Source: Bolinopsis microptera
Taxonomy: Eukaryota; Ctenophora; Tentaculata; Lobata; Bolinopsidae
DNA length: 60,000 nucleotides
Reading direction: 5' to 3'
NCBI RefSeq assembly: GCF_026151205.1
Contig: NC_087077.1
Span: forward strand, 11,942,983-12,002,982
A model generated the notes under the pieces. That model was not told where the DNA came from. It did no database searches and was given only the letters and a program-made list of their open reading frames with translations. Positions 22,884-59,746 of the stretch are shown here, in pieces. Position 1 is the stretch's first letter. Each line of letters starts with the position of its first letter. The translations under genes were made by a program, and so were the position numbers.

Positions 22884-23425
22884 AGACAACATTGTTAATT
22901 TATATAGATGTTTATTCACATTTGATTTAAAATGTGGTTTGTCTTCCTGCGAGAAATAAATAAGTAACATTGATGATCATGGAGTAATCATTGCTTCAGA
23001 TAAAACTGTTGATTTTTGTGCTAATTACAGACAGGCGTTTAATTGTTATATTATATTCTACCTACCATGACCCTAAACGAGTTTATACATTTAACAGCTT
23101 GTTGATTAATTTATAAATGGAATCCTTGAATGATAAACCAGAATTGAAGATATTTGATGTTTGTAAAAATACAACATATTTTGTTTTACTTTATATTACT
23201 CCATTACTACTAAATAATCAAAGTTCAAGAGCAATAAAATTTTTGAATGAAATTAATTCAACCTTTGTTTCATGTGAATGGTTAGACACTAGCTGATTAG
23301 CCGATCTACTGATAACATTTAATTTTTAATTTTGTTAAACTATAATACTTCAATCTTTATGCCAGTAACCTAATCACATTTCGAAGGTTTTTACAATTTA
23401 CATGCTGATTAAGAACTAAAGACTG
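22884..23425. other. Spacer between acyl-CoA dehydrogenase and SDR copy 1
   Basis: It includes the 3' end of the dehydrogenase gene, with AATAAATAAG near 22954 as a possible polyadenylation signal. From about 23141 it carries the left part of the SDR duplication unit, repeated at 25441-25684. No other gene is seen. Confidence 0.55.
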
Positions 23426-37145: not shown

Positions 37146-37975
37146 GATAATATAGGGGGGCCAATGGCATAAAATGGAGAATTTAAAAATAAAAAAAAAC
37201 CCAATTTTTTACATAATTTACTAGTAAAGTACGAAATAATTTAAATCAAATATTCATCTAAAATATAAATATCATTTCGAACACCTAAAGGACAATTTTT
37301 TGCCGCTAATCATATAATATTTCGACTTTCAACAATTTTCCAGCTTGAACACAAGAGTCCCCCCCCCCCCCCCCCCTTCAGCTCAGTAATGAACACTCCG
37401 GTAACGCAACTGACACTTCAATTTCAGTACCCTCCTCAGTTCTAGAAAGATCTTGAAAGCTGCAACGTCAGCAAGTAATTCAGTTCCGATGAAACATATC
37501 GATAAGAATGAATCCCCGTTCATCATTTTTGCAAAAATGTAAAATGAAGGTTACAAACAGACGTTTTTTTCAGAAAAAGAGGGATTTTGGAGATAAGATG
37601 GGGGGGATTTTTGAGATAAAATGGGGAAAGGCAGGTTTCGATTTCGTTTCCGTTTATCACACTTTGCAGTTTGTCATGACTAAAAAAAAACCGCGCACAG
37701 TTGCTTGCGGAGGGTTGCTTGCTTGAGATTTGTACTTGTATGTAGTACTGCAGTAGTCAGTGCATGGGCAGCGTGCCTGTATTTTAATGTGACACATGTA
37801 TTGTTCACTAGTGTACTGATGTGTATAAAACATGAGTATAGTTCAGTTACTTCTTCCAATTTCTTAAATTACAGATACGGCAATTGACTTGGAGCACAAG
37901 TGTTTCCCTCTAATATGCGCTAGTTGAGCAAATTGAGAATCTCTGGCGCGGCGGTCAACTGGAATGTTAAGGAAA
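37146..37975. other. Upstream region of SDR copy 3
   Basis: No gene. A poly-C run lies at about 37360-37376. The sequence before the SDR start is unrelated to the 5' flanks of copies 1, 2 and 4. Confidence 0.5.
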
Positions 37976-38986
37976 ATGAATTACAAAGTGCCCTGCATTC
38001 TCCTGCTGATATCTGTCTCACTATACTACCTACTATCACCTGCTCCACCATTGTCAGATGAGCAACTCACCACTCATCTTAAGGACAAAGTAGTCCTCAT
38101 CTGTGGAGCTAGTAGTGGTATCGGAGAAGAACTGGCATATCAGTTAGCTGGGCATGGAGCCAAACTAGTTCTGGTAGCAAGAAATCAAGATAAGCTAGAT
38201 GTGGTAAAGGAAGGAGTGGTAAAGTTGGGAGCAACTGATGTTCAGACCATTTCCTTTGATTTTTCTGATGTAAAGGGTAGCAGTGGAGTCATCAATCAAA
38301 CCATAGCCTGGTTCGGAAAACTTGACTATTTGGTTTCAAATCACGCTGCTATGCCAAATTTTGCATTCTTGGGGTCTCCCTATCAACAAGAGCCAGATTT
38401 CATTGAAAGAATATTCAGGGTGAATTTGTTCAGTCATATTGAACTAGCAGTGCATGCTCTCCCACATCTTGAAGCAAGCAAAGGACACATGGTTTTCACA
38501 TCTTCAATGGCTGGAGAAAAAACTTCGTATCGGATGGCAATGTACTGTTCGACTAAACACGGAATGAATGGTTTTTTCTACAGTTTACAACAGGAATTGA
38601 TGGCGAGAGAATCACCTGTATCCTTAACCATGGGAGCTTTCGGCTACATTGCTACCAAGGACCTAAGTCAAATGATGGCTGGTGAAGGCATTAAGATTCC
38701 TGCATGGGCTACAGGTGATGTAAAAGAATGTGCTAGAGGGATGATAGAATCTTACATCTTGAGACCACCGACTATGACATACCCTAAATTATATGCATAT
38801 GTTAACAGAGCTTTGTGGTACTTTCATCCATCATTCCATAAGACAATGATACAAGCCTTCAAACATCCTGGTTCAGTTGGTAATGGGTATCAAGACTCGT
38901 TACATGCTGCAGATAAAAAGCATGAAAAGGCAAAGGAGTTGAAATTTCAACAAGGTTATGGTCCAAACGAGGGCGAGGGGAACTAA
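37976..38986 (+). CDS. 11-beta-HSD1-like short-chain dehydrogenase, copy 3
   Basis: A single-exon gene of 336 aa. I chose the ATG at 37976 because the protein then begins MNYKVPC like the other three copies; an in-frame ATG four codons upstream (37964) has no counterpart in them. It has the membrane anchor, GASSGIG, SNHAAM, catalytic Ser (TSSMAG) and YCSTK. Its first 125 codons differ from copy 4 at about one base, while the following part is much more diverged (MPNFAFLGSPYQQ, YRMAMYCSTKHG, GYIATKDLSQMMAGEG). It also lacks the INEDGENAM stretch of copies 1 and 2. The C-terminus reads QQGYGPNEGEGN. Confidence 0.93.
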   Translation: MNYKVPCILLLISVSLYYLLSPAPPLSDEQLTTHLKDKVVLICGASSGIGEELAYQLAGHGAKLVLVARNQDKLDVVKEGVVKLGATDVQTISFDFSDVKGSSGVINQTIAWFGKLDYLVSNHAAMPNFAFLGSPYQQEPDFIERIFRVNLFSHIELAVHALPHLEASKGHMVFTSSMAGEKTSYRMAMYCSTKHGMNGFFYSLQQELMARESPVSLTMGAFGYIATKDLSQMMAGEGIKIPAWATGDVKECARGMIESYILRPPTMTYPKLYAYVNRALWYFHPSFHKTMIQAFKHPGSVGNGYQDSLHAADKKHEKAKELKFQQGYGPNEGEGN

Positions 38987-40260
38987 AACCGTTTGCGGCA
39001 GCACTTAGACATTTTATTGTGTGGTGTGAGTATTTATGCATTCGTCTAATTTTAGTTTATTTCAAACTTTTAAACAAAAAAGAAAAGAATACAAATTTTG
39101 CAAATTTATGAAAATGTAATCCAAGCACCAAATTAGAATTGGCAGTTTTTAGAGATTCTCAGAAGGGTCAGTCAATCAAAATTGAAAATACACATTACTG
39201 ATTACACATAAAAATAAATCCAATCATTACCGTACCACTTTTATTTGATTTTACGGTCAAAATACGTTTAGTAAAGTAAGTTCAGAGTTCTTAGCGTATT
39301 TAGTATAAATACTACGAGGCACTCTAACACAATTAGCCTATCCGCCAATGCCCAATTCGAAATCAGTGCTCTATAGATAATTTAAGAGGGAAATTTCAAG
39401 TATAGGATAACAAGCTCTTAAAATAGGGTGATAGGATAAGGACCAAAACATTGACCCAATAAATTATACATCATACGAACTTTCATGGTAAAAATTATGT
39501 CATGTTGTAAAGAAAAATTTTGGCTGGGTTTAAGTTTTACAGACTGTTCGCACGAGATCCAATAATATTCGAAAATAATCGTACGGTGATTATAGCTCTT
39601 TAGATTACAGACATTCATTTAACTTTAAGTACAGCCATATTATATATATATATATATTCCAGCCGTGTGTTGCTTTAGAGTTTAGAGATCATGCCGCACG
39701 GTCTTTTAGTGCTGTAATAAAACTAAATCTATTACAATGGGACGTAACCGGATTAAGATCTAACCCAAAACCGGAAATAATCAAATTTTTGTTTTTTAAG
39801 TAAGGTTCAAGTCTGAAAATTATTAACGGTACATTTTTACTTCCTTCCTAACTTTCTAACTCGCTGTGATAATGTGTTTAAAGCTCTCTCGCACCAGTTA
39901 GACAGTTTGTAATATTATTTCAATGCAAGTTGTGTTTCAATAACGGGTTTTCCATTATCATTATTATTTGGTTTGTGATCTGTGTTAGGGTTTTTTTTCA
40001 TGATGAGTGTTTTTTAAAGTGTTATATAATATTGTTTTGTTCTGTCGCCTCGCTAAGTTAATAATAAGAAGGCTGGTTTATGGTTTTGCCGCCTTATCTC
40101 CAATCTATTTACAGTACAGTGAAACTTACATGAATAAATTAATGATGAAATAGATTCAAGATAAAAAATCCAGAGCAGTTCATTGCAAAATTATCAGAAC
40201 TAATTCTAATGAAGCACTTTTGTCTTTGTAACTAATGGTTTATTTTAAACAGGCTGTTCC
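38987..40260. other. Spacer between SDR copies 3 and 4
   Basis: No gene is recognised. A short AT microsatellite lies at about 39640-39656. TTTAAACAG just before copy 4 (about 40246-40253) could be a 5' UTR splice acceptor. Confidence 0.5.
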
Positions 40261-41271
40261 ATGAATTACAAAGTGCCCTGCATTCTCCTGCTAATATCTG
40301 TCTCACTATACTACCTACTATCACCTGCTCCACCATTGTCAGATGAGCAACTCACCACTCATCTTAAGGACAAAGTAGTCCTCATCTGTGGAGCTAGTAG
40401 TGGTATCGGAGAAGAACTGGCATATCAGTTAGCTGGGCATGGAGCCAAACTAGTTCTGGTAGCAAGAAATCAAGATAAGCTAGATGTGGTAAAGGAAGGA
40501 GTGGTAAAGTTGGGAGCAACTGATGTTCAGACCATTTCCTTTGATTTTTCTGATGTAAAGGGTAGCAGTGGAGTCATCAATCAAACCATAGCCTGGTTCG
40601 GAAAACTTGACTATTTGGTTTCAAATCACGCTGCTATGGGAAATAGTGCTTTCTTAGGGTTTCCTTATCGACAAGAGCCGGATTTTATTGAAAAAATATT
40701 CCGGGTGAATTTGTTCAGTCATATTGAACTAGCAGTGCATGCTCTCCCACATCTTGAAGCAAGTAAGGGACACATGCTGTTCACTTCTTCGATGGCAGGA
40801 GAAGCACCTTTGTATCGGATGTCTATTTACTGTTCCACTAAACACGGAATGAATGGTTTTTTCTACAGTTTACAACAGGAATTGATGGCCAGAGAATCAC
40901 CTGTGTCCTTAACCATCGGATCTGTAGGCTACATTGCTACTAAGGACTTAAGTCAAATAGTTGCTGGAGAGGGTATGACTACTCCGGCATGGGCTACAGG
41001 TGATGTAAAAGAATGTGCTAGAGGGATGATAGAATCTTACATTACAAGACCACCGACCATGACATACCCTAAATTATATGTATATGTACATAGAGCTATG
41101 TGGTACATTCTCCCAGTCTCATCGTTCCATAAGACAATTATACAAATCTTCAAACCCCCTGGTACAGTGGGTACTGGCTATCAAGAAGCACTGGAGTTTG
41201 TCAACAAAGGGCGTGAAATTGCAAAGAAGTTGAATTTTCAGCAAGGATACGGTCCCGACGATGGGAAATGA
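40261..41271 (+). CDS. 11-beta-HSD1-like short-chain dehydrogenase, copy 4
   Basis: A single-exon gene of 336 aa with the same anchor, GASSGIG cofactor loop, catalytic Ser (TSSMAG) and YCSTK. The loop after SNHAAM reads GNSAFLGFPYRQ, and the segment before the catalytic Tyr reads PLYRMSI, differing from all other copies. The segment after YxxxK (SVGYIATKDLSQIVAGEG) also differs. A block near GDVKECARGMIESYI is again identical in all four copies. A relic of another SDR 3' end follows at about 41380-41430. Confidence 0.93.
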   Translation: MNYKVPCILLLISVSLYYLLSPAPPLSDEQLTTHLKDKVVLICGASSGIGEELAYQLAGHGAKLVLVARNQDKLDVVKEGVVKLGATDVQTISFDFSDVKGSSGVINQTIAWFGKLDYLVSNHAAMGNSAFLGFPYRQEPDFIEKIFRVNLFSHIELAVHALPHLEASKGHMLFTSSMAGEAPLYRMSIYCSTKHGMNGFFYSLQQELMARESPVSLTIGSVGYIATKDLSQIVAGEGMTTPAWATGDVKECARGMIESYITRPPTMTYPKLYVYVHRAMWYILPVSSFHKTIIQIFKPPGTVGTGYQEALEFVNKGREIAKKLNFQQGYGPDDGK

Positions 41272-44349: not shown

Positions 44350-46578
44350 GGAAAGCTGTTTTTAAGAACTCAGCACGGGATAACGAAGTTCCTATGGAGC
44401 TACTGAAGAAACCAGTAACAGCTCCTTGTACTTCTTTTGAAGACCCAGCCATCAAGTCTGCATAAGACAACATTGTCAATTTTGTAGACAACTTCAAGCC
44501 CAGAAAACTTGAATCTAATATGAACCGCTATGAGAGTGAAGGGTATATGTGGTTGAAGAAGGCTGTCAAGGATGGCTTAATAGCCATAACATCGGCTGAT
44601 AAGGGCGGTGCGATAATCATTGTCACCCCTCAGATAATCAAGGATATCACTTCTGCCAAAGTTGAGGACCCTTTGAGATACAGACCTTTGCAAACTGATC
44701 CTACTGGATCTTTGAGAGGGAGGTTGTTAGAGCTGTGGTCATCTGGTTTGGAGCGGAAGTATGTAAGTGGTGAACAGTCTAAGTGTGTGGTTGGTTTGAT
44801 TCAGAAGTCTGATCGGGACACTCTTTCGCAGAGCACTTCAGATCTAGTCAAGCCCGATATTCCGTATGGTTACCCATACTGAAAATTCACAAGCTGACTG
44901 AGACTGAAATTAGAGAGAAAAAGATTCCACCCAGTCGATTCGTGACTGATCTCTCTAGAGGAGTAACTGCAAGATCAGATAAGTTTGTTGTTTGGAAGTG
45001 GTTGGGACCTCTTGCCAGGGATTACTGTATAGATCTTGTTAAAGATTCAACTGCAGCTCTCATAAAACTCGAGGAATTGACAATTAGTCGATACTTGGAT
45101 CAGCTTCAGTATTGATATTGTTTCTCTATACGATTCTCTGCAACATAGCTTGGTGATGTCAGCCTTAGATGATGCTATGGAGTCGTGTAGACCAGATTGG
45201 TCTGAGGAGTTCAGGACTTGGCTGAAGGGACTGATACAGCTTAGTTTTGATTCGGCAGTCTTGAAGAATGCAGACAACTGGTATGAGGTCGTTAACGGTG
45301 TACCCACTGGAGGTATCAATTCAGTGGATTGCGGTAACATTGCTTTGTTCTTTGTCCTAAAGAGTCTGGTTTACGACCCGGTTGTTAGACCAGAGGAGCT
45401 CAAGAACCTTGATCGGTTTGTGGATGATATTTCGGGCCAAGGTATGTGGAGAGGTTCTATGATTGGTTTTGAAGAATGGGTAGGGTCATTACACAGTAAG
45501 ATGGTTGATAACTATGGCTTAGATATTACATACGAAGTGAAACCAATCACGGAGTTCACTCAGTTCCTGGACATTCAGTACAAGTTTGTTGGAGGGAGAC
45601 TCACAACAGATCTGTTTAGGAAACCTACTGACGCCAACAGGTATCTTGAATTCTCAAGTTTCCATCCACGACATACCTTCCGGAGTATAGTCTTCTCACA
45701 GGCACTTCGATACAGAAGGATAATCAATGATGACGTCTTGCTGGATGAGAGATTGGCAGAGCTTCAGTTGTTTTTTTAGCGGTCTTCATATCCTACTGAT
45801 ATGGTGAGAGAGGTCATCAGTGATGTCAGATCGATACCAAGAACTTTACAGTACAAGGCAAAGGACCAGGGTCCCCCTTCTTTCACACCATGGATTGTTA
45901 CATTCGGTGCGGGCTATGAGGAAACCAAGGAAAAGGCTAAAGAGGCCAGTAACATCATCTCAAATAGCCGTACATGGAGCAGTGAGAACCCTGAGAGGAT
46001 CCCTAAACTCCAAGTGGTGACCAGGCGAGCCCCTAACTTAAAGGACAATTTATTCAAGAGAAAAAAGCTTGCCTTAGGTTCAGAGTCAAGAACAACTGAT
46101 CCATGCACCAAACCTGGTGAGAAGAAGAAAGGCAGACCCTGCCAAACTTGTCACCTTGTTAGTGGCAATTCCATGGTCTCCAATAATGGACGCTCAGTCA
46201 GAACTCAAGGTGGTAATTGTGTACGGCGCGACGTGCAAACTTTGTACTGTTAATAACGTATACGTGGGAAAAACAGTCACCAGCCTCAGCCAACGTGTGA
46301 ATGGTCATCGCAGTAAATATTATGAGATTTTAGAGGCGAGTAGTAAGGGGAATGTGGAGACCCAAAGAGATTTTGATGACGAGAATGTTTTAGGGGCACA
46401 TCTTTTTTCAGTTCATAATTTGAGGGAGAGATCTGATTTCAATGAAAGTTTCCATTTTGATATTTTGTGTTCTACATCCCCAGATAATATTAGAAAGTCA
46501 GAACAGTTTTATATTAACAAATTGAAGACACTTTATCCGTATGGCCTGAACAATGTGAATTCCATTTCTGGAAGCTAA
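44350..46578 (+). mobile_element. Degenerate Penelope-like retroelement
   Basis: Reading frames in one order make a Penelope-like polyprotein. The N-terminal RT region has the family hallmark ADKGGA (about 44600). The motif A region is SIDIVSLYDSL (about 45108), and GGINSVDCGNIALF and FVDDI (about 45416) correspond to RT motifs B and C. A CxxC linker (RPCQTC, about 46133) and a GIY-YIG domain follow. Reading requires joining across a stop near 44463, a stop at 44880 and frameshifts near 45080, 45780 and 46200, so the copy is dead. The FVDD variant replaces the usual YxDD. It interrupts a duplicated AATGATTC-rich locus. Confidence 0.8.
46206..46578 (+). pseudogene. GIY-YIG endonuclease domain of the Penelope-like element
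   Basis: VVIVYGATCKLCTVNNVYVG carries the two GIY-YIG half motifs (VYG and VYVG), with a CKLC zinc-like pair between them, followed by KTVTSLSQRVNGHRSKY. The conserved Arg and His of the first helix are therefore present. A later Glu (RKSEQFYINKLKTLYPYGLN) matches the family's metal-binding Glu, and PYGLN is the typical end. In Penelope-like elements this nuclease nicks the target DNA to prime reverse transcription. This domain itself is intact but lies in a different frame from the upstream linker. Confidence 0.8.
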
Positions 46579-47430
46579 TTTTTCATGGTGTCCCGAATTT
46601 TATTTTTAATTCGTCCATTTTTTGTTTATATATGCAGTCTATCAATTTTTGAATTGCGTCTTTTTGATTTAATGAACTACTGCAGACTCCACATTATTAT
46701 AGTATATGCCATTAATTTTGTTCCGATTTTAAACTATTCCATTTTGACGAGATGCTAAATTAATTTTTTGAGACTTTACTACATTTTTGATGAGAATTTT
46801 TGACATTTTCAAACTAACCATTGATGTTCTCAGATTATGTGACTGATTAAATGCTGAAGATAAAAGAAATATATTCATTTTGCTAAGATTATGTTGGCGT
46901 TTCATTGCTCAACAGCTGTTCGAAGGATCAAATTTAAGAATGATTCTTTTAAATGATTTTCAAAAATAATTCTTTCTCAAACAATGTTTTGGATCGGCTG
47001 ATTATATTTTTGGATGGTTTTTAAATGATTTTTAATTGATTCTTTCACTGTAAACTGTTCTTTTAAATGTTTTTTTTTTAACAATTTTTTTGTCAAACGA
47101 TGTTGTACATGATCGATGAAACAGTAGTTTAATCTTTGAGTCATTTTTCTTGCAAACATTATACCCATTGAATGGTGTGGTGTTCGTGAAGCAATCCATG
47201 AAGCTATTTAAGAGAGTTAAAGCATTGCTATTCAACAATTAACCAAAATTAACCTCTATAATAATCATAATGATAAGTTGCTTCATTCTTGCATAATTTA
47301 TGAAGCAATAAAACATCCCAAAAATAATAATCATGTAGTTCACTATTAGCGGATGTGAGCGAGAAAAAATCGGAAGATAACAGAGCGGACACAATTATAA
47401 TAGCAGTGAATGGTACGATACAATAGAGTG
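46579..47430. other. Spacer upstream of TMEM222
   Basis: No gene. At about 46930-47050 it contains the right part of the AATGATTC-type repeat also found at 41515-41690. The TMEM222 promoter should lie in the last few hundred bases, but no core promoter motif is clear. Confidence 0.5.
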
Positions 47431-49023
47431 ATGGCAGATGACCCCGCCCTGCTCCCACATGATGTTGACACTGACAGACAGAGGTTCCCTCATGCTGTGG
47501 TCTGGACTCCGCTCCCCCTCCTCAGGTACACAAGTACTTTCCCTTCTCAGGTACACAAGTACTTTCCCTCCTCAGGTACACAAGTACTTTCCCTCCTCAG
47601 GTACACAAGTACTTTCCCTCCTCAGGTACACAAGTACTTTCCCTCCTCAGGTACACAAGTACTTTCCCTTCTCAGGTACACAAGTACTTTCCCTCCTCAG
47701 GTACACAAGTACTTTCCCTTCTCAGGTACACAAGTACTTTCCCTCCTCAGGTACACAAGTACTTTCCCTTCTCAGGTACACAAGTACTTTCCCTCCTCAG
47801 GTACACAAGTACTTTCCCTTCTCAGGTACACAAGTACTTTCCCTTCTCAGGTACACAAGTACTTTCCCTACTCAGGTACACAAGTACTTTCCCTTCTCAG
47901 GTACACAAGTACTTTCCCTCCTCAGGTACACAAGTACTTTCCCTTCTCAGGTACACAAGTACTTTCCCTCCTCAGGTACACAAGTACTTTCCCTTCTCAG
48001 GTACACAAGTACTTTCCCTCCTCAGGTACACAAGTACTTTCCCTTCTCAGGTACACAAGTCATGCCGGTCACTCCTCAATCAGTTGTAAAATTAACACTT
48101 AACAGCGTAGAAATACTGGTATATGTAGACGAACAGTATGATATTATCCTTTACCACCACATTACAACCCTCGCACCACCCCTCCCCCCTTCTTCTTTAC
48201 CACCACATTACAACCCTCGCACCCCCCCCCCCCCCCCTCCCCCCTTCTTCTTTGCCACCAAATTACCAACCTCTCTCTCTCTTCAGCTGGCTGTTCCCCC
48301 TGATCGGGCACACTGGTATCTGCACTACAGAGGGTGTTATCAACGACTTTGCGGGTCCCTACACCGTCACTGTGGACAACATGGCCTTTGGTGACACCAC
48401 TAAGTACTGGCAGTTAGATCTTAGTAAGGTGGGAGACGTGGAGTGGGATGAGGCTGTGACAAAGGCTTCTCAGGAGTATCGCAACAGGATGGTGAGCATT
48501 CCACTTGCTTTCATCAGAACTTTGGAACTTTGTTCTTACCAGAACTCTAGAACATGTAATAGATGTATCATGACAGTCTATGATAAATTATAAAGTGTTG
48601 ATAATTAAGAAATTGTATTATTCCCAGCACAATATATGTTGTGACAACTGTCACTCGCATGTAGCATACGCTATGAACCTGATGAAGTACGATGGGAAAA
48701 GTAACTGGAATATGGTTCACATTGCTATCTATCTGCTCATTTACGGAAAATATACTGGGTAATTTATAGACTCAGATTGATAATCGTATACTTGAGTTTT
48801 GGAAAAATTTAGGTGCTGAACTTCAAATAAAGTATCATAACCTCTCTAATTAACGCTGGATCAATGATTTCATTTCGACCTCATAAGATAGATACAAGGA
48901 TAGATCCATTATATGTATCGTCACTAACATTTTCAAAATTTCAGATTCGGTGGATTTTTGAAGACTTGGTTACCTTTTATTTTGGTGGTTGCCGTGATTC
49001 TGATTGTTATCTTTGTGTTTTGA
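47431..49023 (+). CDS. TMEM222: TMEM222-family membrane protein, 4 exons
   Basis: Exons 47431-47525, 48287-48491, 48628-48758 and 48945-49023 join in phase to 169 aa. The product matches the TMEM222/DUF778 family along its length: FPHAVVWTPLPLLSW, then FPLIGHTGICTTEGVINDFA, then DNMAFGDTTKYWQLD, then NICCDNCHSHVAYAMNLM, and two or three hydrophobic segments ending FVF. The conserved CCDNCHSHVA block is intact. The molecular role of this family is not established; human TMEM222 is a multi-pass membrane protein. Start chosen at MADDPALLP because the next conserved residues follow directly. Intron 1 (761 bp) is unusual: 535 bp of it is a minisatellite that repeats the exon 1 donor junction. Confidence 0.93.
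47521..48060. repeat. 25-bp minisatellite made of splice-junction copies
   Basis: 21.6 units of 25 bp, each starting CTCAGGTACACAAGT and ending ACTTTCCCTT or ACTTTCCCTC. The first unit includes the last five bases of exon 1 and the intron 1 donor. Every unit therefore carries a pyrimidine tract, CAG and an immediate GTAC. The unit has no stop codon in any forward frame, which explains the long open frames across it. Confidence 0.95.
48145..48275. repeat. C-rich tandem repeat before exon 2 of TMEM222
   Basis: Two and a half imperfect copies of a unit of about 50-60 bp starting TTTACCACCACATTACAACC and ending in C-runs and TTCTTC, placed just upstream of the acceptor CTCTTCAG. It is pyrimidine-rich and may act as an extended polypyrimidine tract. 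Confidence 0.75.
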
Positions 49024-51971
49024 AGAGTTTGTCTTGACCCAAAAAAAGAGGAATCCAACGAGAGGGATGAATGTTATGTCGTATGATATTTTTACCTTGA
49101 CTAGAATTTGGGTAAAAGTAGGTGGTAAATATATGAAAGTTGGAGTAGATCGAATATATTTATCTCTTAATAGAATTTAGCTCGCTATCATAATTCTAGT
49201 ATAATGGTTCTTAAATCTTTAAATCTGGGTCCTCACTCCTCGATTTTGATTTCGTTTAAACTTGTTTATTATATAGTTAACATAATACAATTATGCTTAT
49301 TATATTCTACTAGTATAGTTAAATGTTACTTTCAGATAGATTTTTTGTAATATAATCAAATATACATAACAAACTTACTCAGTCACTTACTGTGATGCTA
49401 AAACCTTAACAAGAGATATAATAAAACACTTACTCTCTAGTGATTTTTATTTGATATTATTATTTGAATTCGAAGTTGTAAATTATACGTAGTATTCGAA
49501 TTAAAAAATGCTCGGGAAAAGAGAGCAGTTTCAGAAGTTTAGGTTAAACATTTAACAGTTCTTGCTTTTGAATTTATCTGCTGTTATCATTTGAAATTGA
49601 ATTTCGTAACGATCTGTTAGTCTAATTAGAAATTTGTCGAATAATTAGATAAATCGAAATGTTTGTTTCCCAAATAAACAACCATAAAAATTAGAATACT
49701 CCCCACATGGTTTGTAAAACCATAAACCATATTACACTCTTTAAAATGTTATTTAAACACTCATTTGATTGCAGTTCACCATAACTAAAACGAATGTTAT
49801 TGAATAGGAAGAAAACAAATGAAGAAGGGAAGATCTAGAAAAAGAAAAGTAACCAGCTGATAGTTATACTAGGGAAGAAGTCTGTAATATGGTCTACGTT
49901 ATAAACATGATCCAGTAATAAAGTAAAATGCCGCAATGTATCATGGTATTCAGAATATTAAGGAAATAATGAATTTGTACCGCACATATTGTTACCACTG
50001 AGAATGACTACTTGAAGAAAACTGCCCGTTGCAGAATAAAAAGGTGAGGATGTCGTCAAGTTCACGTTGTTATATTTTAGTTCCGCTTCATGTTAAAGTC
50101 GGGGGAGCAATGTTTGTGGTATTTTTTAACGTATGTTGCAGTGGAAGTAAAACGTGCGGGTTGTTACTCCTGACATGAATGCAAAATCGCCCACGTTATC
50201 TTGGAAATAATATTTAAACGTCAGAAGATATCAGATTACTAATTCGGTAAAACGTTTCTACCTGCCTCTTGTTTCTACCTGCCTCTTGTTTTACGTCTTT
50301 TATTCTGTATAAAAGAGTATAATATGAAATTAGGGAATATGATATAATGAAACCAACTGCTAATTGGCCGTAGCTCTATTACCACAGTAACATATTGTGT
50401 CAGTTTTAATAGTTAATACCTGTATTAAGCTGTAAACCTCAACATTTGTCATGTTAAGACTAAAAATACTGATTGTTGGATAATATCCGGTTGGACAAGT
50501 GAAACAAGGAAGTTGTTTCACTTGTCCTTGTCTCTTCCAACCGGATATTATCCAATTATCAGTATTTCAATCATGAGACTAATAAACAGCGAACTACTCC
50601 GTTATTTGATAAGACTAAAAATGTAAACGATTGTTCTAATCGTATAAAACTTTCAGGTTGCAGTTCCGCGAACAAGAAATCTTACATGAAGCAGTTATTT
50701 TAATTGTTAATCTGAAAACAAGATTTGATGCAGAAGTTCAAAGAATTGGACTATTTGGAGTTTTAGGGGCGTGGTTACTCGCTATTCTCCCATTGCTTCC
50801 TTTAACTTTTTGTCTTTCTTGTTTGTGATAGTCTTTAATCGGGATTCCTTTTAAAAAGGGTTTTCTGCAAAGATAAACTATATCTTTTAATGAAACTTAG
50901 GTGGCGAAAACAAGAAATTGAACTTCACAAAACCTAGATTTTTTATTCGGTTTACAATATGTCTTTAATGACGAAGGCTGCGAAATGTTCTCAGTTCTGA
51001 TAATGTAGAAATTAGGAATAATGTTTTTAAAAGTGGTGACGATGTTTAATGTTTATGTCATTATTCTTGATTTGATAGTGTGTATTTTTGTGGTTAAATT
51101 ATTGATTCGTTCAGTAGTATAGCTTGTCGATTTTTTTATTCCTGTTTAACTTTGATTTCGGGACTTATTAGTTTCATCATCGACATTCGTAGTAATCTGA
51201 GCTTTATTAAACATATTTTATTTGGGAAAATGTTGATACTTGGGTTTCCACCAAATACGGGGAGGAGACATCACGTAACAAACCAGAAGTCTCACTACCG
51301 ACACGTTTTTGTAACGCGCGGAACTTAAGATATTGATATTAACGCGCGCACGCGTGTTCGTTATATTTAATTATTACTGTATCTAATTTATTAAGTGCAT
51401 AATCTAACCCTTACAAAGTTGCAAGTCCAATATATTGACTATTATGTAGGATTTTATATTTATCCTTCCAACATGTCTAGTAGATTACGGCCTGATACGT
51501 ATCAAAGAGAGGTTACGATCGTCTGATATCACATAATAATATCTTGATGTGTAGTTCACTCAAAGAGACAGTATCTTGTATGCCTTTTGGCATAGCTGAT
51601 CTTTCATCTTAAGCTTTAAATACTAGTCTGTATGGGTCGACATATTAAAAACCGATTAATTTAAAGACTCGTCTAATTAAACTTTCACTCCATTTGAACA
51701 ATTATGCTCTTCTTGATCACTAATCAACATTATAACACTGCTCCATCGGTCCTCTTAGTATCTACTGATGAAGACAGCACCTTCACATTACACGGTTACC
51801 ATCCAAATTTAATCTCAGAACTCTGATAGTAGGCAGGTAATCTCAAATGTGAAAATCTTGAGTATATTGGGTGTCGTTCACATTAAGTAACCACTTTTTG
51901 GCCAATTTTTACCATACATTTATTGAGTTATTTGTTAATTGACGAATAAATTGTGTTATTATAGCTAGTCG
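49024..51971. other. Spacer between TMEM222 and the methyltransferase gene
   Basis: No gene is recognised in this AT-rich stretch. It contains the hairpin at 50463-50567 and, at about 51887, the start of the poly-C repeat family (GTCGTTCACATTAAGTAACC). Confidence 0.5.
50463..50567. repeat. Hairpin, about 105 bp
   Basis: TTGGATAATATCCGGTTGG (50476) pairs with its exact inverse ending near 50552. The stem continues outward through AATACTGAT and inward through ACAAGTGAAACAA, with a 3'-arm bulge of about 9-11 nt. The size and shape fit either a small MITE or a microRNA-like precursor; nothing in the sequence decides between them. Confidence 0.6.
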
Positions 51972-53263
51972 ATGTCTCGAACGGTCGGTTTCGTTGCTAA
52001 CAACGCAGCTAGAACAATGTCTACCATTACACCCGGAAGTAAAATAGACCCGGTAAGATACACAATTTTCTGAAATAAATTCTTAATTGTTGACCTTTAG
52101 CAATACATAATTTAAGGTCGACTAATCGATTGATAGATTGGATTGATACACTGTTTTATGATCAACTTTCAGAAAGAATTGTTCGTTGGAAGCGACCTAT
52201 CAGAGAGATACGTCAAATACCGTCCTAAGTTACCAGTGGAACATGTTAAAACTATTGTGGAACTGCTCGGAAGAAGACCGGAAGTCTGGCTTGATGTAGG
52301 ATGTGGACCTGGTACCAGTACTCAACAGTAAGTCCCCCTCTTAGCCTCCTCTCCTTAGATTACACATAACTATTGTATATAAATTAGATCAGAAGCTTTT
52401 CCAAATCATTTCCTAAGGCGAATTCTGATAATTTTTGGACCAATGTGTTCTGGTTATGTGACTTATGAAAATTCAAAACTTTTAGGATTATTGGTCACAC
52501 TGACAAATTAGTAGGGATTGATGTAAGTGACACACAAGTAGCAGTCGCCAACAAAACGTTCCAACATCCTTCTTTATCTTTTGTTCAGGTTTGTTGTTCG
52601 AGAAACAATGCTATCCAGTCTTATATCATGATATCTTATTTCATTTCATTGAAAGATTTGTTCGAAGTATTGATGTGATTACAGGTCCAATGAAATTATA
52701 TACAATTTTCCTCTTAAATTAGGGTTCGTGTGAGAAGTTGCCTGCTGAAGACTGCTCTGTTGATGTGATAACAGCTGTCCAAGCAGCACACTACTTCGAC
52801 CTACCGGCGTTCTTCAAAGAGGTAAATTAACATTATCATCCTTGATTCGCATGTTCAATGAATACCGCATGATATTGGTGAATAACGGTGCTGAATTCAG
52901 GTGGGTAGGACCCTAAAGAGCAAGGGAGTTGTGAGTTTGATCTGTTACCCCGACCCTCACTTCCCCACTTCGCCCACCCTCACCTCCGCTCTCGACCACA
53001 TCAACCACACCTACCTCCGTCCTTACTTCCCTGATTCCCGCAGCCACTACTTCTCCACCAAGTACTCCAACATCACCCTCCCCTTCACCCAGCACCACCA
53101 GCACTCTCTCCAGATAGGACTCCCTATCTCCTACCCTTCTCTTCTCGACATCTTATCCACCTGGTCTGGCTTCCAGAACTTGTGCGATGAGAGGGAGATA
53201 ACCCTGGAACAAGGAGTCCATGTCCTGGATCAGGAGATGGCTGGGTTCATGACTGAGGAGTAG
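51972..53263 (+). CDS. SAM-dependent methyltransferase, exons 1-5 (C-terminus cut by transposon)
   Basis: Exons 51972-52052, 52173-52327, 52486-52588, 52723-52821 and 52901-53263, all GT-AG, join to 266 aa. The protein is a class I methyltransferase. LFVGSDLSERYVKYRPKLP precedes motif I (VWLDVGCGPGTST), then the acidic strand (LVGIDVSD), and DVITAVQAAHYFDLPAFFKE corresponds to motif III-IV. The set resembles animal UbiE/DDB_G0268948-like methyltransferases; the substrate is unknown. Exon 5 (VGRTLKSKGVVSL...) ends at a TAG that is the first codon of an inserted transposon; its original last 20 codons are displaced to 55421-55493. Exon 4 ends in phase 0, and so can also join to the three similar exons at 57194, 58287 and 59318. 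Confidence 0.88.
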
Positions 53264-55412
53264 CCCGGTTCATAAAACAAAAATTTATCCAATAATTACG
53301 GCGATAGGCTTATCTGTTGTTCCTTAGGCCAAATAACTACCAAAAAAATTTTGAAGCTTCAACTCCAACCGGAAACACCCCCACATGCCACGCCCATTTT
53401 TTTCATCAATTTTTAACAGGTAAAAATCTTCATATCATCAATTTAGGCATGAAGGAGTGCTTTTAGTGCTCCAACAGTTTGGGGTCTAATAGTAATGGTA
53501 GAAAAAGGTTAACTTTAGTCAAAATCTCAAGTCTCCACGGCGCTTGGTTTAGGCGCACCAGATCTCGCGTCTCCGCCTCCGCTGCGTGATTGGTGGCGCC
53601 AGAACTAAAGGTCGTAGAGACATGAGACTTCAACTAAAGTTAACCTTTTCCTACCATTTATATTAGAGTAGCACAGATTCAGAGCTCTAAACACATTCCT
53701 TCATCCTTAAAACGACAATCATATGAATTTTGCCTGTAAAAGTTGATATCTTGATGTCAATTAACATCGTAAGCTTTTAAAACTAAAATTAATTAAATGA
53801 GTCATAATACTTCACACAATATTTACACACAATATGAAAATATAAATACAGGAAGTCTTTTGGATTCCACGTCTCCACACCCTGGAACTGTCAGAGGTAA
53901 GAACACTAGAACAGTCTTTTATTAATAATCCAACAATCATATTATATGAACCTTTTCAGTTGAAACTTCGTTGGTTGCATTGTGTTGCAAAATTTCTTGC
54001 ATTACAATACTAGTGAAAATAAACATTACTGGGGGAATTTGCCCTCTTCCAAGCTCTCTTACAATGAAGTCGCATTCCGGAGACTAATGTTTATGAATGA
54101 GCAGTCACTGTCGAGAACGAGCTGGTCGAGTATTGGGAATATGCCATCTATGGCGTGGAGAATTTCCCCTCTTAGATACCGTGGAGAATTTCCCCTCTTC
54201 ATGAATCCTACAAGAATTTAACAAGTATTCCCCCATCTTGGAGAGGGAATCAGTCCTTCAGCTTCAAGAAATTCAGTTTACAGAAGAGATTCATTTAGAT
54301 GTTAGATCCATTACTGATAACTTGGTAAAGGAATTAGAACCAGATGCTACTTTGTTAGCTAATGCTTGGATATTTATAGTTATTTACTTAACTTTGTCTT
54401 GACGTATCAGTAAGAGATTTCTGTACCTCGTTATTTACGAAGAAATCATCAGACCTTATTAATAGTGATCGGTGACCCTGTCAGTGACGACTGACGAGCT
54501 ATGAAGGAATCATTGGATCTCATTGATAATGATCCTGTCAGTGACGAGCTATGAAGGAATTATTGGACCTCATCAATGCTGATCCTATCGGTGACGAGTT
54601 ATAAAGAAATAAAGACCTCATTTAAATCCTAGTTTGACGAAAATATTCCTCTGGCAACAAAATTCCTTTTGGCAACGAAGATTAGACAGCTTGCTTGTGA
54701 AGACTTGGCGATCCGAAAACCAGGGTACCTAAATCAGAACCTGCTGACTTCTTTAAAGGATCAGTTCCACTTTCCAGTGCAGGGACCGAGAAAAGTTCAA
54801 TGTCGAATCCAAGAGACTTCCTGTATTTATATTTTCATATTGTGTGTAAATATTGTGTGAAGTATTATGACTCATTTAATTAATTTTAGTTTTAAAAGCT
54901 TACGATGTTAATTGACATCAAGATATCAACTTTTACAGGCAAAATTCATATGATTGTCGTTTTAAGGATGAAGGAATGTGTTTAGAGCTCTGAATCTGTG
55001 CTACTCTAATATAAATGGTAGGAAAAGGTTAACTTTAGTTGAAGTCTCATGTCTCTACGACCTTTAGTTCTGGCGCCACCAATCACGCAGCGGAGGCGGA
55101 GACGCGAGATCCGGTGCGCCTAAACCAAGCGCCGTGGAGACTTGAGACTTTGACTAAAGTTAACCTTTTTCTACCATTACTATTAGACCCCAAATTGTTG
55201 GAGCACTAAAAGCACTCCTTCATGCCTAAATTGATGATATGAAGATTTTTACCTGTTAAAAATTGATGAAAAAAATGGGCGTGGCATGTGGGGGTGTTTC
55301 CGGTTGAAGTTGAAGCTTCAAAATTTTTTTGGTAGTTATTTGGCCTAAGGAACAACAGATAAGCCTATCGCCGTAATTATTGGATAATATTTTTGTTTTA
55401 TGAACCGGGCTA
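53261..55412. mobile_element. 2152-bp fold-back transposon inside the methyltransferase exon
   Basis: The ends TAGCCCGGTTCATAAAAC and its inverse start inverted repeats of about 610 bp (53261-53873 and about 54800-55412), nearly identical to each other. The 8-bp direct repeat CTGAGGAG flanks the element (53253-53260 and 55413-55420). Eight-base duplications occur in hAT, P and Merlin elements. Each arm is itself a diverged palindrome (about 53400-53780) centred on GC-rich sequence near 53570. The 0.93-kb centre (53874-54800) has no recognisable transposase. It contains a diverged tandem repeat of about 60 bp with GTCAGTGACGAGCTATGAAG (54460-54605) and a duplicated TGGAGAATTTCCCCTCTT (54155-54200). 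Confidence 0.93.
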
Positions 55413-55420
55413 CTGAGGAG

Positions 55421-55493
55421 GATAGAACCATGGATCATGTGCTAGGGTACAATTGTACCATGGTGTCCGCTGTCAAAGATTGAGATGTGACAA
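55421..55493 (+). pseudogene. Displaced C-terminal coding end of methyltransferase exon 5
   Basis: Directly after the right target duplication the methyltransferase frame resumes, giving DRTMDHVLGYNCTMVSAVKD and a TGA. This corresponds to YTWSHPCALVTASK at the ends of the other terminal exons. It shows that exon 5 once continued here, and that the transposon separated 20 codons from the rest. Confidence 0.85.
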
Positions 55494-55604
55494 ATTATAT
55501 CCCTGAACTATTTCATCCCGCTGTTTATTATAAATTATCTTTGAACCTGAAGCAAAGATTGGAAACCGTGTTTCATACCTTTCCAAGCGATTTAAAACTC
55601 TATC
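55494..55604. other. Short spacer between the exon end and the TTAA palindrome
   Basis: Noncoding sequence between the displaced exon end and the next element; nothing is recognised. Confidence 0.5.
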
Positions 55605-55608
55605 TTAA

Positions 55609-57006
55609 GGGGACATATACAAAAAGCTTTTATGTCCCGAACAGGCTGTAACTTCATATTAAGAAAGTATACATTAAAACAATAAGATTTGATACATTAA
55701 AAATTATTTTTGAGGAACCGCACTTCCGAAAAAATAAATATTTTCTTTTTCGAAAATTTTGAAAATTTTGAGAAGTCTGTCACTGTTATACCGATATTTC
55801 AGTCGTTTTTAACGTTTTTTGGCCGATTTTTTTACTGAACATTACTGACACTCCGTACAAGAAGCCCTTCAAAGGATTTTATAATTAAAATATAGATGAC
55901 GAAGTTACAGACCAAACAATGTCGAGAGAAGCAAAATTGAAATTTTTGTAAAAATCAAAGTTGTATATTTTACCATTCACCCAGGTCATAAGATATCGCT
56001 TTAAAAATTCTTGTGAGTGTAGCTGATGATCATATCCAACTTTATGGAACATGATTTCTCTCAGTTTTGAGTTTTAAGGTATGAAATGTGGCCTAAACGA
56101 CTTAGTAAAATTCATCGTAAAAAAGGGCCAAACATGGCAGATTTAAGGCTTAAAATGCCTATAACTCAAAAAGTATCAGTTTTTTTTGAAATAATTTTTA
56201 CAGGATCGTAATCAGCTTGGTAAGACGAATCTTTTAGTACCAAATTTATAATAGTTAAAGACACAAAATTTGTAAAAAATGTGTACAATTTGTACAACAT
56301 TTATACAAGGGGGGACCCTTGTGTTCGAGCTGGAAAATTATTTAAGACAATTTGTCTTCTAAAATCACCTATTTGGTACTAAAAGATTCGTCTTCTCAAG
56401 CTGATTACGATTCTGTAAAAATTATTTCAAAAAAACTGATACTTTTTGAGTTATAGGCATTTTAAGCCTTAAATCTGCCATGTTTGGCCCTTTTTTACGA
56501 TGAATTTTACTAAGTCGTTTAGGCCACATTTCATACCTTAAAACTCAAAACTGAGAGAAATCATGTTCCATAAAGTTGGATATGATCATCAGCTACACTC
56601 ACAAGAATTTTTAAAGCGATATCTTATGACCTGGGTGAATGGTAAAATATACAACTTTGATTTTTACAAAAATTTCAATTTTGCTTCTCTCGACATTGTT
56701 TGGTCTGTAACTTCGTCATCTATATTTTAATTATAAAATCCTTTGAAGGGCTTCTTGTACGGAGTGTCAGTAATGTTCAGTAAAAAAATCAGCCAAAAAA
56801 CGTTAAGAACGACTGAAATATCGGTATAACAGTGACAGACTTCTCAACATTTTCAAAATTTTCGAAAAAGAAAATATTTATTTTTTCGGAAGTGCGGTTC
56901 CTCAAAAATAATTTTTAATGTATCAAATCTTATTGTTTTAATGTATACTTTCTTAATATGAAGTTACAGCCTGTTCGGGACATAAAAGCTTTTTGTATAT
57001 GTCCCC
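55609..57006. mobile_element. 1.4-kb TTAA-flanked giant palindrome
   Basis: GGGGACATATACAAAAAGC and its inverse form the ends, and TTAA flanks both sides (55605-55608 and 57007-57010). The arms are about 640 bp (to about 56246, and from about 56371), roughly 98% identical where I compared them, around a loop of about 125 bp. TTAA targeting points to a piggyBac- or Kolobok-mobilised non-autonomous element, as does the unrelated 19488-20781 element. No coding frame is present. Inverted arms of this length would form long double-stranded RNA if transcribed. Confidence 0.9.
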
Positions 57007-57193
57007 TTAAGCTGCGTCAAAATAAGTAAAGGCCACTAATTTAAAATTAAATGTCACCTAAGCTTCCGGCTAAGGTCAGAGTCAGAGCAGGACTCATTTT
57101 GCACCACATTCGCTGTTACCTTAATCTGCTACACTCTCAAGAGTCACAATTTGGGGAACACGGTTATTTTTCGTATCCTATCTTATATTTCAG

Positions 57194-57643
57194 GTAGATC
57201 GAGTTTTAAAACCAGGAGGAATAGTTGGACTCGTGTGTATTAACGGACCAAAATGTGTAGATTCCATCAGCATGAAAATGGCCTCAAAATGCATGTGGGA
57301 TTTGATAGCTCAGTACGGTATGCCAGACAAGGTGCAAATGTTACAAGATAACTACAAGGATCTTGTCCTACCTTACCCCACCCGGAGAGATCACATGTTC
57401 GATATCCGGACCTCCTGGTCTCTTAGAGATTTCCTGGACGTTATCATGACATGGTCTCCGGTGAACAACATGATAAAGAGTCTGGGATTGTCGGTGGAGG
57501 AAGGATATGATCACGTGACTGAATTGATGAAGGAGAGAGGTATGACGGAACTAGACATGAAGTCTGTGTACACGTGGTCTCACCGTGTGCTCTGGTTACA
57601 GCTAGTAAATCTTAGTAACTCTCAAGTTTTTGGCATGTGGTAA
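57194..57643 (+). CDS. Methyltransferase alternative terminal exon A
   Basis: The acceptor TATTTCAG is followed in phase 0 by VDRVLKPGGIVGLVCINGPK, the usual post-motif III sequence of UbiE-like methyltransferases (EVDRVLKPGG). It fits exactly onto the end of exon 4 (PAFFKE). The exon encodes about 150 residues, including MFDIRTSWSLRDFLD. One C is missing near 57583 relative to exons B and D (CACCGTG against CACCCGTG), so the conserved end PCALVTASK is lost and the frame runs on to 57643. It may still be functional apart from the last residues. Confidence 0.75.
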   Translation, partial: VDRVLKPGGIVGLVCINGPKCVDSISMKMASKCMWDLIAQYGMPDKVQMLQDNYKDLVLPYPTRRDHMFDIRTSWSLRDFLDVIMTWSPVNNMIKSLGLSVEEGYDHVTELMKERGMTELDMKSVYTWSHRVLWLQLVNLSNSQVFGMW

Positions 57644-58286
57644 ATTTGGGCAGTCGTGAGGTCATTTACAATTTACATCTATTAATTTCAAATAGTTCAT
57701 TTACAAAACCTGTATTTAGCTTATTCCTGAGGAACAAGGCTTCAACCAAAACCATTAAATTATGTTATTATGAATTATTACCTTCTGAATTTTAATAAAA
57801 TTGTGCAATTCATCATTTTTCTTTCATTTGAACAATATGTATACGTTCATTTAGTTTAAATTGACTCTCAGTAAAATATACTATATTCTTGCCAAAATCT
57901 GAAATTTTCATGCAGCCTGTCTCATGCAGCCTGTCTCTTGAGGCAGTTTTATCTTCATAGATTTATCAAAAGTATTGTGTCTCCTCATGTTCTGAACCCG
58001 TGATAGGATTTCCCATCTCCTACCCTTGTCTCCTTATTCTCTGTAGTCAGGGTTTCAGAACTTATATCATGGCAGCAAACTATCCCCGGAATGCTATATG
58101 TCCATATCTTCTGCGAATAGACGGCCTCCACTTTAAGATTTAATTGTTAAACAAGCTTCCTGTCAAGCTGTAAGTCAGAGGTCAGGACTCTTCTTGCATA
58201 ATATTCACTGTTATAAAACCTGCTACATCCTCAGAGCCACAATTTGGTGAACACAGTTGTTTGCTGTATCCTATCCTATATTTCAG
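57644..58286. other. Spacer between terminal exons A and B
   Basis: Noncoding. At about 58002-58066 it holds a relic of an exon 5-type coding segment (ATTTCCCATCTCCTACCCTT...). The last 150 bp, including CAGAGGTCAGGACTC and the region before the acceptor, are homologous to the sequences preceding exons A and D, so the duplication unit is about 1.03-1.09 kb. Confidence 0.6.
58002..58066 (+). pseudogene. Relic of an exon 5-type segment
   Basis: TTTCCCATCTCCTACCCTTG and GGTTTCAGAACTTAT align with exon 5 around LPISYPSLLDILSTWSGFQN (about 53121-53180), with indels. The duplicated block therefore once contained both kinds of terminal exon. Confidence 0.6.
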
Positions 58287-58708
58287 GTAGATCGAGTTCT
58301 AAAACCTGGAGGTATAGTTGGACTCGTGTGTATTAACTTACCAACATGTGTAGATTCCAGCAGTATGCACAATGCCTCGACATGCATCTGGGATGTTATC
58401 ACCCAATACGGTTTGCCAAAGAAAGTAAGACATGTACAAGAGAACTACAAGAATCTCGCCCTACCTTACCCAAATCGGAAGGATCACATGTTCGATATTC
58501 AGACCTCCTGGTCTCTTAAGATTACCTGGACGAATGTTTGACGTCCTCTCCGGTGAACAACATGATAAAGCATCTGGGATTGTCGATGGAAGAGGGATAT
58601 GATCACGTGACTGAATTGATGAAGGAGAGAGGTATGACGGAACTAGACATGAAGTCTGTGTACACGTGGTCTCACCCGTGTGCTCTGGTTACAGCTAGTA
58701 AATCTTAG
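58287..58708 (+). pseudogene. Methyltransferase alternative terminal exon B, frameshifted
   Basis: The same phase 0 acceptor and VDRVLKPGGIVGLVCINLPT start as exon A. One base is deleted near 58519 (SLKITW where A and D read SLRD), giving an early stop at 58541. Beyond it the other frame continues through MIKHLGLSMEEGYDHVTELM to PCALVTASKS and a stop at 58706-58708. If spliced in, it would encode a truncated C-terminus, so I take it as a decayed exon. Confidence 0.8.
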
Positions 58709-59317
58709 TGACTGAAGTTTTTGGAATGGGGTAAATTTGGGCAATTGCGATTGAGTTTAGTTTTAATTTAGTATTTTCATTTATATCTGACCAAAACAAC
58801 TTATCAATTATGTAACCGTGGGCCAACTGGATTCAAACCTTTAAAGGAACTTTTACATTTTAAGTCCTAATATTAAGCTTCTGAGAAGTTAGTGAATTCC
58901 TTAAACAAAAGCGTTGTTTTTAACTTGTTAAATTTGACTTTCAATGAGATTGAGTACTTCATAATACTTTCCAGCCTTTTTATCTCAACAATATTTGTTT
59001 CTTTAGTTTTAATTGATTATCAGTTATATTTGACATTCGGAATGGGCGAAAATATCCAACCTTCTCATGCGAAATTGTCTCTTAAGGCAACTTTAAATTT
59101 AGAACTTGTGAAATTTGTGGGAACTCCCCGTAACAAGGGGGTCAGTGTCTTGAGAGATGATGCCTCACTGTAAGATTTAGAAATAAACTGAGCTTCTTGC
59201 TCAGCCCAAAATCAGAGTCAGTTCAAGAATCCCCTTGCATGGTATTCGCTGTTACCTTGGTCCTTGACCTGATACACAACTTGGCATACGGTTTTCGTAT
59301 CCTATTTTATATTTTAG
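58709..59317. other. Spacer between terminal exons B and D
   Basis: Noncoding. A 93-codon frame at 58892-59173 is low in codon structure and not protein-like. The last 130 bp before the acceptor are homologous to the sequences preceding exons A and B. Confidence 0.5.
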
Positions 59318-59746
59318 GTAGATCGAGTTCTGAAGCCCGGAGGAATAGTTGGTCTAGTGTCAATTAACTTACCAAGATGTGTGGATACCAGCAGTATGCA
59401 CAGTGCCTCGGAATGCATTGACAACGTGATCGCTCAGTACGGCATGCCAGACAAGGTGCAAATGTTAGAAGAGAACTACAAGAATCTCGTTTTACCTTAC
59501 CCCACCCGGAGGGACTACATGTTCGATATCCGGACATCCTGGTCTCTTAGAGATTACATCGACGTTGTTATGACGTTTTCTCCAGTGAACAATTTGATAA
59601 AGAGTTTGGGACTGACGTTGGAGGAGGGATATGTTCACGTGACTGATATGATAAAGGAGGAAGCTCTTATGGAACTAGACATGAAGTGTGTGTACACGTG
59701 GACTCAGCCATGTGCTATCGTTACAGCTAGTAAACCTCTAAATTAA
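59318..59746 (+). CDS. Methyltransferase alternative terminal exon D, intact
   Basis: The acceptor TATTTTAG is followed in phase 0 by VDRVLKPGGIVGLVSINLPR and an uninterrupted frame of 142 codons ending PCAIVTASKPLN and TAA. Compared with A and B it has substitutions concentrated in the middle (SSMHSASECIDNVIAQYG, LRDYIDVVMTFSPVNNLIKS). With exons 1-4 it would give a 288-residue methyltransferase. It is the only one of the downstream terminal exons with no lesion, so it is the best candidate for the main product. Confidence 0.85.
   Translation, partial: VDRVLKPGGIVGLVSINLPRCVDTSSMHSASECIDNVIAQYGMPDKVQMLEENYKNLVLPYPTRRDYMFDIRTSWSLRDYIDVVMTFSPVNNLIKSLGLTLEEGYVHVTDMIKEEALMELDMKCVYTWTQPCAIVTASKPLN

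Follow-up and report, generated by a model that had tools for sequence, protein, structure and literature searches.

A methyltransferase gene of the ctenophore Bolinopsis microptera with one S-adenosylmethionine-binding half and a decaying array of putative alternative last exons

Can one S-adenosylmethionine (SAM)-binding half of a methyltransferase be completed by more than one ending encoded in the same gene? The question was raised by a locus at 51972-59746 of a 60,000-nucleotide stretch of Bolinopsis microptera DNA (the window, C6:11942983-12002982), which was judged eukaryotic by its introns; the genome searched comprised 264.65 Mb in 232 contigs. The locus reads, with somewhat better than even probability, as a single gene for a class I methyltransferase, in which one SAM-binding half is followed by alternative last exons of two old kinds; partial tandem duplication would have multiplied the second kind, which would now be decaying.

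The SAM-binding half is encoded on the + strand by four exons with GT/AG borders, whose ends were taken from the sequence and which carry the SAM-binding motifs. Exon 1 (51972-52052; 81 bases, 27 codons) opens with ATG and closes in phase 0 at a GT donor, exon 2 (52173-52327; 155 bases) contains the SAM motif LDVGCGPGT, exon 3 (52486-52588; 103 bases) contains the VGIDVS region, and exon 4 (52723-52821; 99 bases) ends in phase 0 at FFKE with the donor GAG/gtaaat. On the spliced protein, the Pfam Methyltransf_11 match covered exons 2, 3 and 4. An earlier note on this DNA had placed the SAM-binding part in exons 1-4 with a phase-0 end at PAFFKE, and this end was recovered. A whole-genome protein search with exons 2-4 gave five matches, three of which were these exons, while the other two were weak (E about 0.005) and lay on contig C11, where a distant relative of exons 1-4 crosses the FFKE/V position in a single open frame without an intron. 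Such protein searches score the best candidates only, and an absence in them is not absolute. By sequence, exon 4 is the sole upstream partner found for the terminal exons.

Four terminal exons follow on the + strand. Exon A (52901-53263, opening with VGRTLK) is cut short by an inserted element, the first triplet of which serves as its stop codon. Exon B (57194-57643, opening with VDRVLKPGG) carries a frameshift near 57583 that alters its last residues, and exon C (58287-58708) carries one near 58519 followed by an early stop at 58539-58541, with homology to D extending to about 58708. Exon D (59318-59746), with 142 codons and a stop, is the sole complete terminal exon. All four start in phase 0 at the residue directly after FFKE, and the four starts at a common protein position (52901, 57194, 58287 and 59318) given in the earlier note were borne out. 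The locus has the form of a mutually exclusive cluster, in that neighbouring homologous exons share phase and protein position. The stop of its own that had been ascribed to each exon was found in D, but not in A, B and C in their present state. With D as query, B matched at 74% identity (E 1.6e-63) and A at 29% (E 2.2e-5), the identity of A and D ranging from 27 to 29%; as judged from sequence, the similarity among the terminal exons is far above chance. Whole-genome protein searches placed all five matches of D (E <= 0.01) and all three of A (E <= 1) within the array, and no copy of a terminal exon was found outside it among the best candidates scored. The upstream intron was common to B, C and D (113-161 aligned bases, 73-78% identity); it had been attributed to A, B and D, which was correct for B and D but not for A, in which no share was detectable, C taking its place. 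The suggestion that the array continues past the window was not upheld, as no fifth ending was found within the next 10 kb, of which the DNA comparison covered the first 1.5 kb.

Membership of the class I SAM-dependent methyltransferases followed from the curated Pfam score for Methyltransf_11 (PF08241; cut-off 21.2 bits), exons 2-4 scoring 68.6 bits with A and 78.6 bits with D. In the PDB, the nearest match of the spliced core joined to D was 4hg2 (Methyltransferase type 11; query 9-210 across the join, 67.9 bits), and that of the core joined to A was 3g5t (Tmt1, trans-aconitate 3-methyltransferase; 65.7 bits, also across the join). The core with A aligned with 4hg2 across the join as well (query 9-209, 60.2 bits). 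Because both predicted proteins match methyltransferases across the join, A and D are both plausible continuations of the fold. Tmt1 and 4hg2, which are known as single proteins, belong to the same family and have the same order as the two predicted proteins, at a similarity too low for a substrate to be assigned here. No listed NCBIfam model reached its cut-off; trans-aconitate 2-methyltransferase scored 28.1 and 29.7 bits, far under the cut-off of 297, the models listed held none of the Tmt1 type, and exons A and D alone gave no family. The predicted structure of exon D alone was uninformative (mean predicted local distance difference test score 43.6, predicted template modelling score 0.34). 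Elsewhere in the genome, two Methyltransf_11 matches about 96 kb apart (C6:19055163 and C6:19150800) had equal scores and frame lengths, and the pair may stem from a recent duplication or from a haplotype left unresolved in the assembly.

The spacers between the endings bear on how the array arose. A decayed, 5'-truncated piece of exon A was found between B and C on the + strand (58002-58108), matching A positions 213-324 with 75 of 114 columns identical. Its score of 69 was equalled by none of 300 shuffles (at most 31) and exceeded all 430 real-sequence control scores (best 49). The piece starts about 22-40 bases past the end of the 3' flank homology of B, a flank that B and C have in common (57698-57979 aligned with 58856-59119). 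Because this truncated piece sits in the B-C spacer, the tandem unit would most simply have begun inside exon A and never have taken in exons 1-4; a later deletion of the 5' half of A is a possible alternative. In three spacer stretches (57644-58122, 58744-59200 and 55488-55604), neither a remnant of exons 1-4 and their introns nor a trace of the 5' half of A was detected beyond shuffles, in keeping with the earlier statement that no extra copies of exons 1-4 occur between the endings.

Two fold-back elements lie in and after exon A. The one inside A (53261-55412, unstranded) has arms of about 600 bases and an 8-bp target duplication, CTGAGGAG, at 53253-53260 and 55413-55420, from the length of which we take it to be hAT-like. 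Its left arm had at least 11 other genomic matches across the whole 619-base query (among the best 40 of 393 candidates), and since these are 99-100% identical, the insertion is probably recent and the element young. Read across the empty site, A gains 20 further residues to its original stop (55421-55483, + strand), and this ending resembles that of D by eye. The second element (55605-57010, unstranded) lies between A and B, is repeated in the genome and has TTAA at both ends, and is presumably piggyBac-like, judged by that target. With both elements removed, the distance to the B acceptor is 308 bases from A's own stop and 810 bases from exon 4, and there is therefore no room between A and B for separate 5' exons.

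The ratio of nonsynonymous to synonymous change (dN/dS) was estimated pairwise with 1000 codon resamplings per pair and was 0.34 for B-D (bootstrap 0.19-0.63), 0.34 for C-D (0.19-0.57) and 0.39 for B-C (0.21-0.70), none of the 1000 bootstraps reaching 1 in any pair. Because the differences are mainly silent, B, C and D were probably translated after duplicating, and their likely partner would be exon 4, the search having turned up no alternative upstream exon. In whole-exon alignments of B and D, gaps were rarer per base in the exon (2-3 in 425) than in the intron that the two share (5 in 117; Fisher test 0.007-0.016, depending on gap cost), and the same held for C and D (exon 2-7 in about 421, intron 5-6 in 117; 0.007-0.048). 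On these sequence counts, the gap argument for constraint is moderate, and the weight of the interpretation lies on dN/dS and on the A piece at 58002-58108.

These observations can be joined into a history. A and B/D would be two old kinds of 3'-terminal exon, and each would complete one and the same fold directly after FFKE. Tandem duplication of part of the locus, with a left end presumably within exon A and a right end about 320-350 bp beyond the B-type exon, would have produced three B-type exons (B, C and D) and left between B and C a dead, 5'-truncated piece of A. The new exons would each have retained an acceptor, making splicing to the common exon 4 possible, and the last exon may be set by competition among acceptors and poly(A) sites. 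Poly(A) hexamers were located at 57754 and 57794 after B (the latter AATAAA, 57794-57799, + strand), at 59182 after C and at 60127 after D, and the sole candidate for A outside the elements was ATTAAA at 57046. Terminal exon clusters may be under poly(A)-site rather than splicing control (PMC3923563). Later decay would have brought the frameshifts of B and C and then, probably recently, the transposon in A, leaving D intact. In living animals, exon 4 is predicted to be spliced both to A and to D, and the two endings may confer different substrates; truncation or frameshift has affected three of the four copies, so that the ending used at present may be only D, or either A or D. The earlier proposal is partly supported: one SAM-binding half with interchangeable last exons is the reading that suits the DNA best, given the low dN/dS, exon 4 as the sole partner found and a duplicated unit that seems to start inside exon A, whereas the use of more than one ending today, mutual exclusivity and a change of substrate are conjectural.

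Several results weigh against this history. An intact frame was found in one copy only, and three of the four endings (A, B and C) are damaged at present, as the earlier note had partly anticipated in describing at least one broken member and two with altered ends. The B. microptera assembly was polished with Illumina reads and annotated with the help of Iso-Seq reads, as described in PMC10232365, and a single-base assembly error behind the frameshift of B or C is possible. The 3' flank of D matched neither that of B nor that of C. A possible second piece of exon A (59101-59159, + strand) is weak and is not relied on; its score of 40 lay above those of all 300 shuffles (31 at most) but was reached or passed by 4 of the 430 real-sequence controls, and the piece is out of register with the point at which the flank alignment ends. 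Counted per lineage, constraint was weaker, with nonsynonymous changes making up 10 of 19 in B (p 0.024-0.045 by transition weight), 25 of 42 in D (p 0.020-0.053, likewise) and 21 of 33 in C (p 0.10-0.19, not significant). The gap contrast between B and C was not significant either (exon 3-5 in about 420, intron 4 in 127; 0.057-0.23). When 69 changes were simulated under neutrality, an open frame survived in 8% of runs, and with half as many changes in 26%; by itself such a frame is weak evidence of translation. Competing pairing between a docking site and copies of a selector RNA has been reported for PGRP-LC and pip (PMC9013439), though not every cluster needs it; here, six duplexes of exon 4 or intron 4 with the introns of B, C and D were evaluated, and none went beyond shuffles (21-55 of 100 as good). 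The whole interpretation is drawn from the DNA of one genome.

The explanation that competes most closely is that a single product is made today from exons 1-4 with D (or with truncated A), the other endings being dead and no choice being left. We consider this rather unlikely, though by no means negligible. The frameshifts of B and C and the truncation of A by a probably young element agree with it, as does the rise in C-D dN/dS from 0.20 before C's frameshift to 0.72 after it, on few changes. Against it, an open frame runs through 120 codons of A as far as the element, and the change in B is confined to its last residues, although neither demonstrates present use.

It is improbable that the endings are orphan fragments of whole-gene tandem duplicates that have lost exons 1-4, even though flanking intron is common to the tandem copies and B and C share a 3' flank. 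No exon 1-4 remnant was detected in the tested spacers, where there would be hardly any space for it, the duplicated segment apparently starts inside exon A, and pairwise dN/dS stayed well under 1 after duplication. Whole-gene duplication followed by loss was rejected on the spacer content of the stretches tested. Most improbable of all is that the acceptors of B, C and D take a trans-spliced leader and give short separate messenger RNAs. Leader trans-splicing is described as common in ctenophores (PMC8527503), but the endings open in mid-protein, have no start codon at their head and hold half of the fold only. The published Hormiphora leader was found neither in the genome (24 bases, at most 2 mismatches) nor in the window (20 bases, at most 3 mismatches), although the leader may not be the same in every species.

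The reading preferred here, a gene that carries alternative last exons of two kinds, describes an architecture of a known kind, met in this case in another enzyme class and in advanced decay. In the Drosophila gene pip (pipe), the terminal exons follow shared 5' exons. They are tandem, homologous and mutually exclusive, the product is a sulfotransferase, and the account in PMC9013439 counts eight homologous clusters and places pip among duplications in untranslated regions. The B. microptera locus resembles pip as a transferase gene with tandem homologous terminal exons, and differs from it in that its four endings fall into two kinds, are for the most part decayed and are known from DNA alone. 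Insect serpins such as Manduca serpin-1 also have alternative C-terminal exons. These are joined to a constant part, bear the specificity loop and are gained and lost fast, and transcript data for Pteromalus PpSerpin-1 gave a constant part with 21 C-terminal forms (PMC10513286). The serpins are another protein, and in the methyltransferase the exchanged part would amount to about half of the enzyme. In searches confined to these wordings, no published account of this gene was found under alternative splicing and exon duplication in Mnemiopsis, under mutually exclusive exons in ctenophores or, by title, under methyltransferase alternative last exons.

Other features were seen around the gene. 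Four similar short-chain dehydrogenase frames lie in tandem on the + strand (23420-24466, 25679-26698, 37937-38986 and 40249-41271), as judged by eye and by a Pfam scan of two of the four. Among the frames at 44466-46578, which we take by eye to be of Penelope type, the last gave a sub-threshold GIY-YIG match (20.2 against 22.6 bits) and the frame at 45081 gave none. A short-repeat array containing GGTACACAAGTACTTTCCC is open in three frames (47410-48100). Upstream of the methyltransferase gene are an RTE1-like (PF05608) frame at 48129-48593 and a small inverted repeat at 50464-50567 with 32-base arms, 94% complementary. In the 10 kb past the window, the open frame L006:570-998 had no Pfam match and presumably resembles a carboxylase beta subunit (MCCC2-like), and a glutaminase-like frame lies past the array on the opposite strand (L006:5294-7108).

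A further step, to which we give a little less than an even chance on this sequence, is that the single SAM-binding half serves two old and very different substrate-binding halves by choice of the last exon, one metabolic methyltransferase gene yielding two enzymes, and that a duplication begun inside one ending multiplied the other. If this is true, roughly half of a catalytic domain would be exchanged through the last exon of a single gene. The locus also preserves traces of each step of the process, from a duplication end that apparently lies inside an exon, through later selection, to the transposon and frameshifts that are removing the copies.

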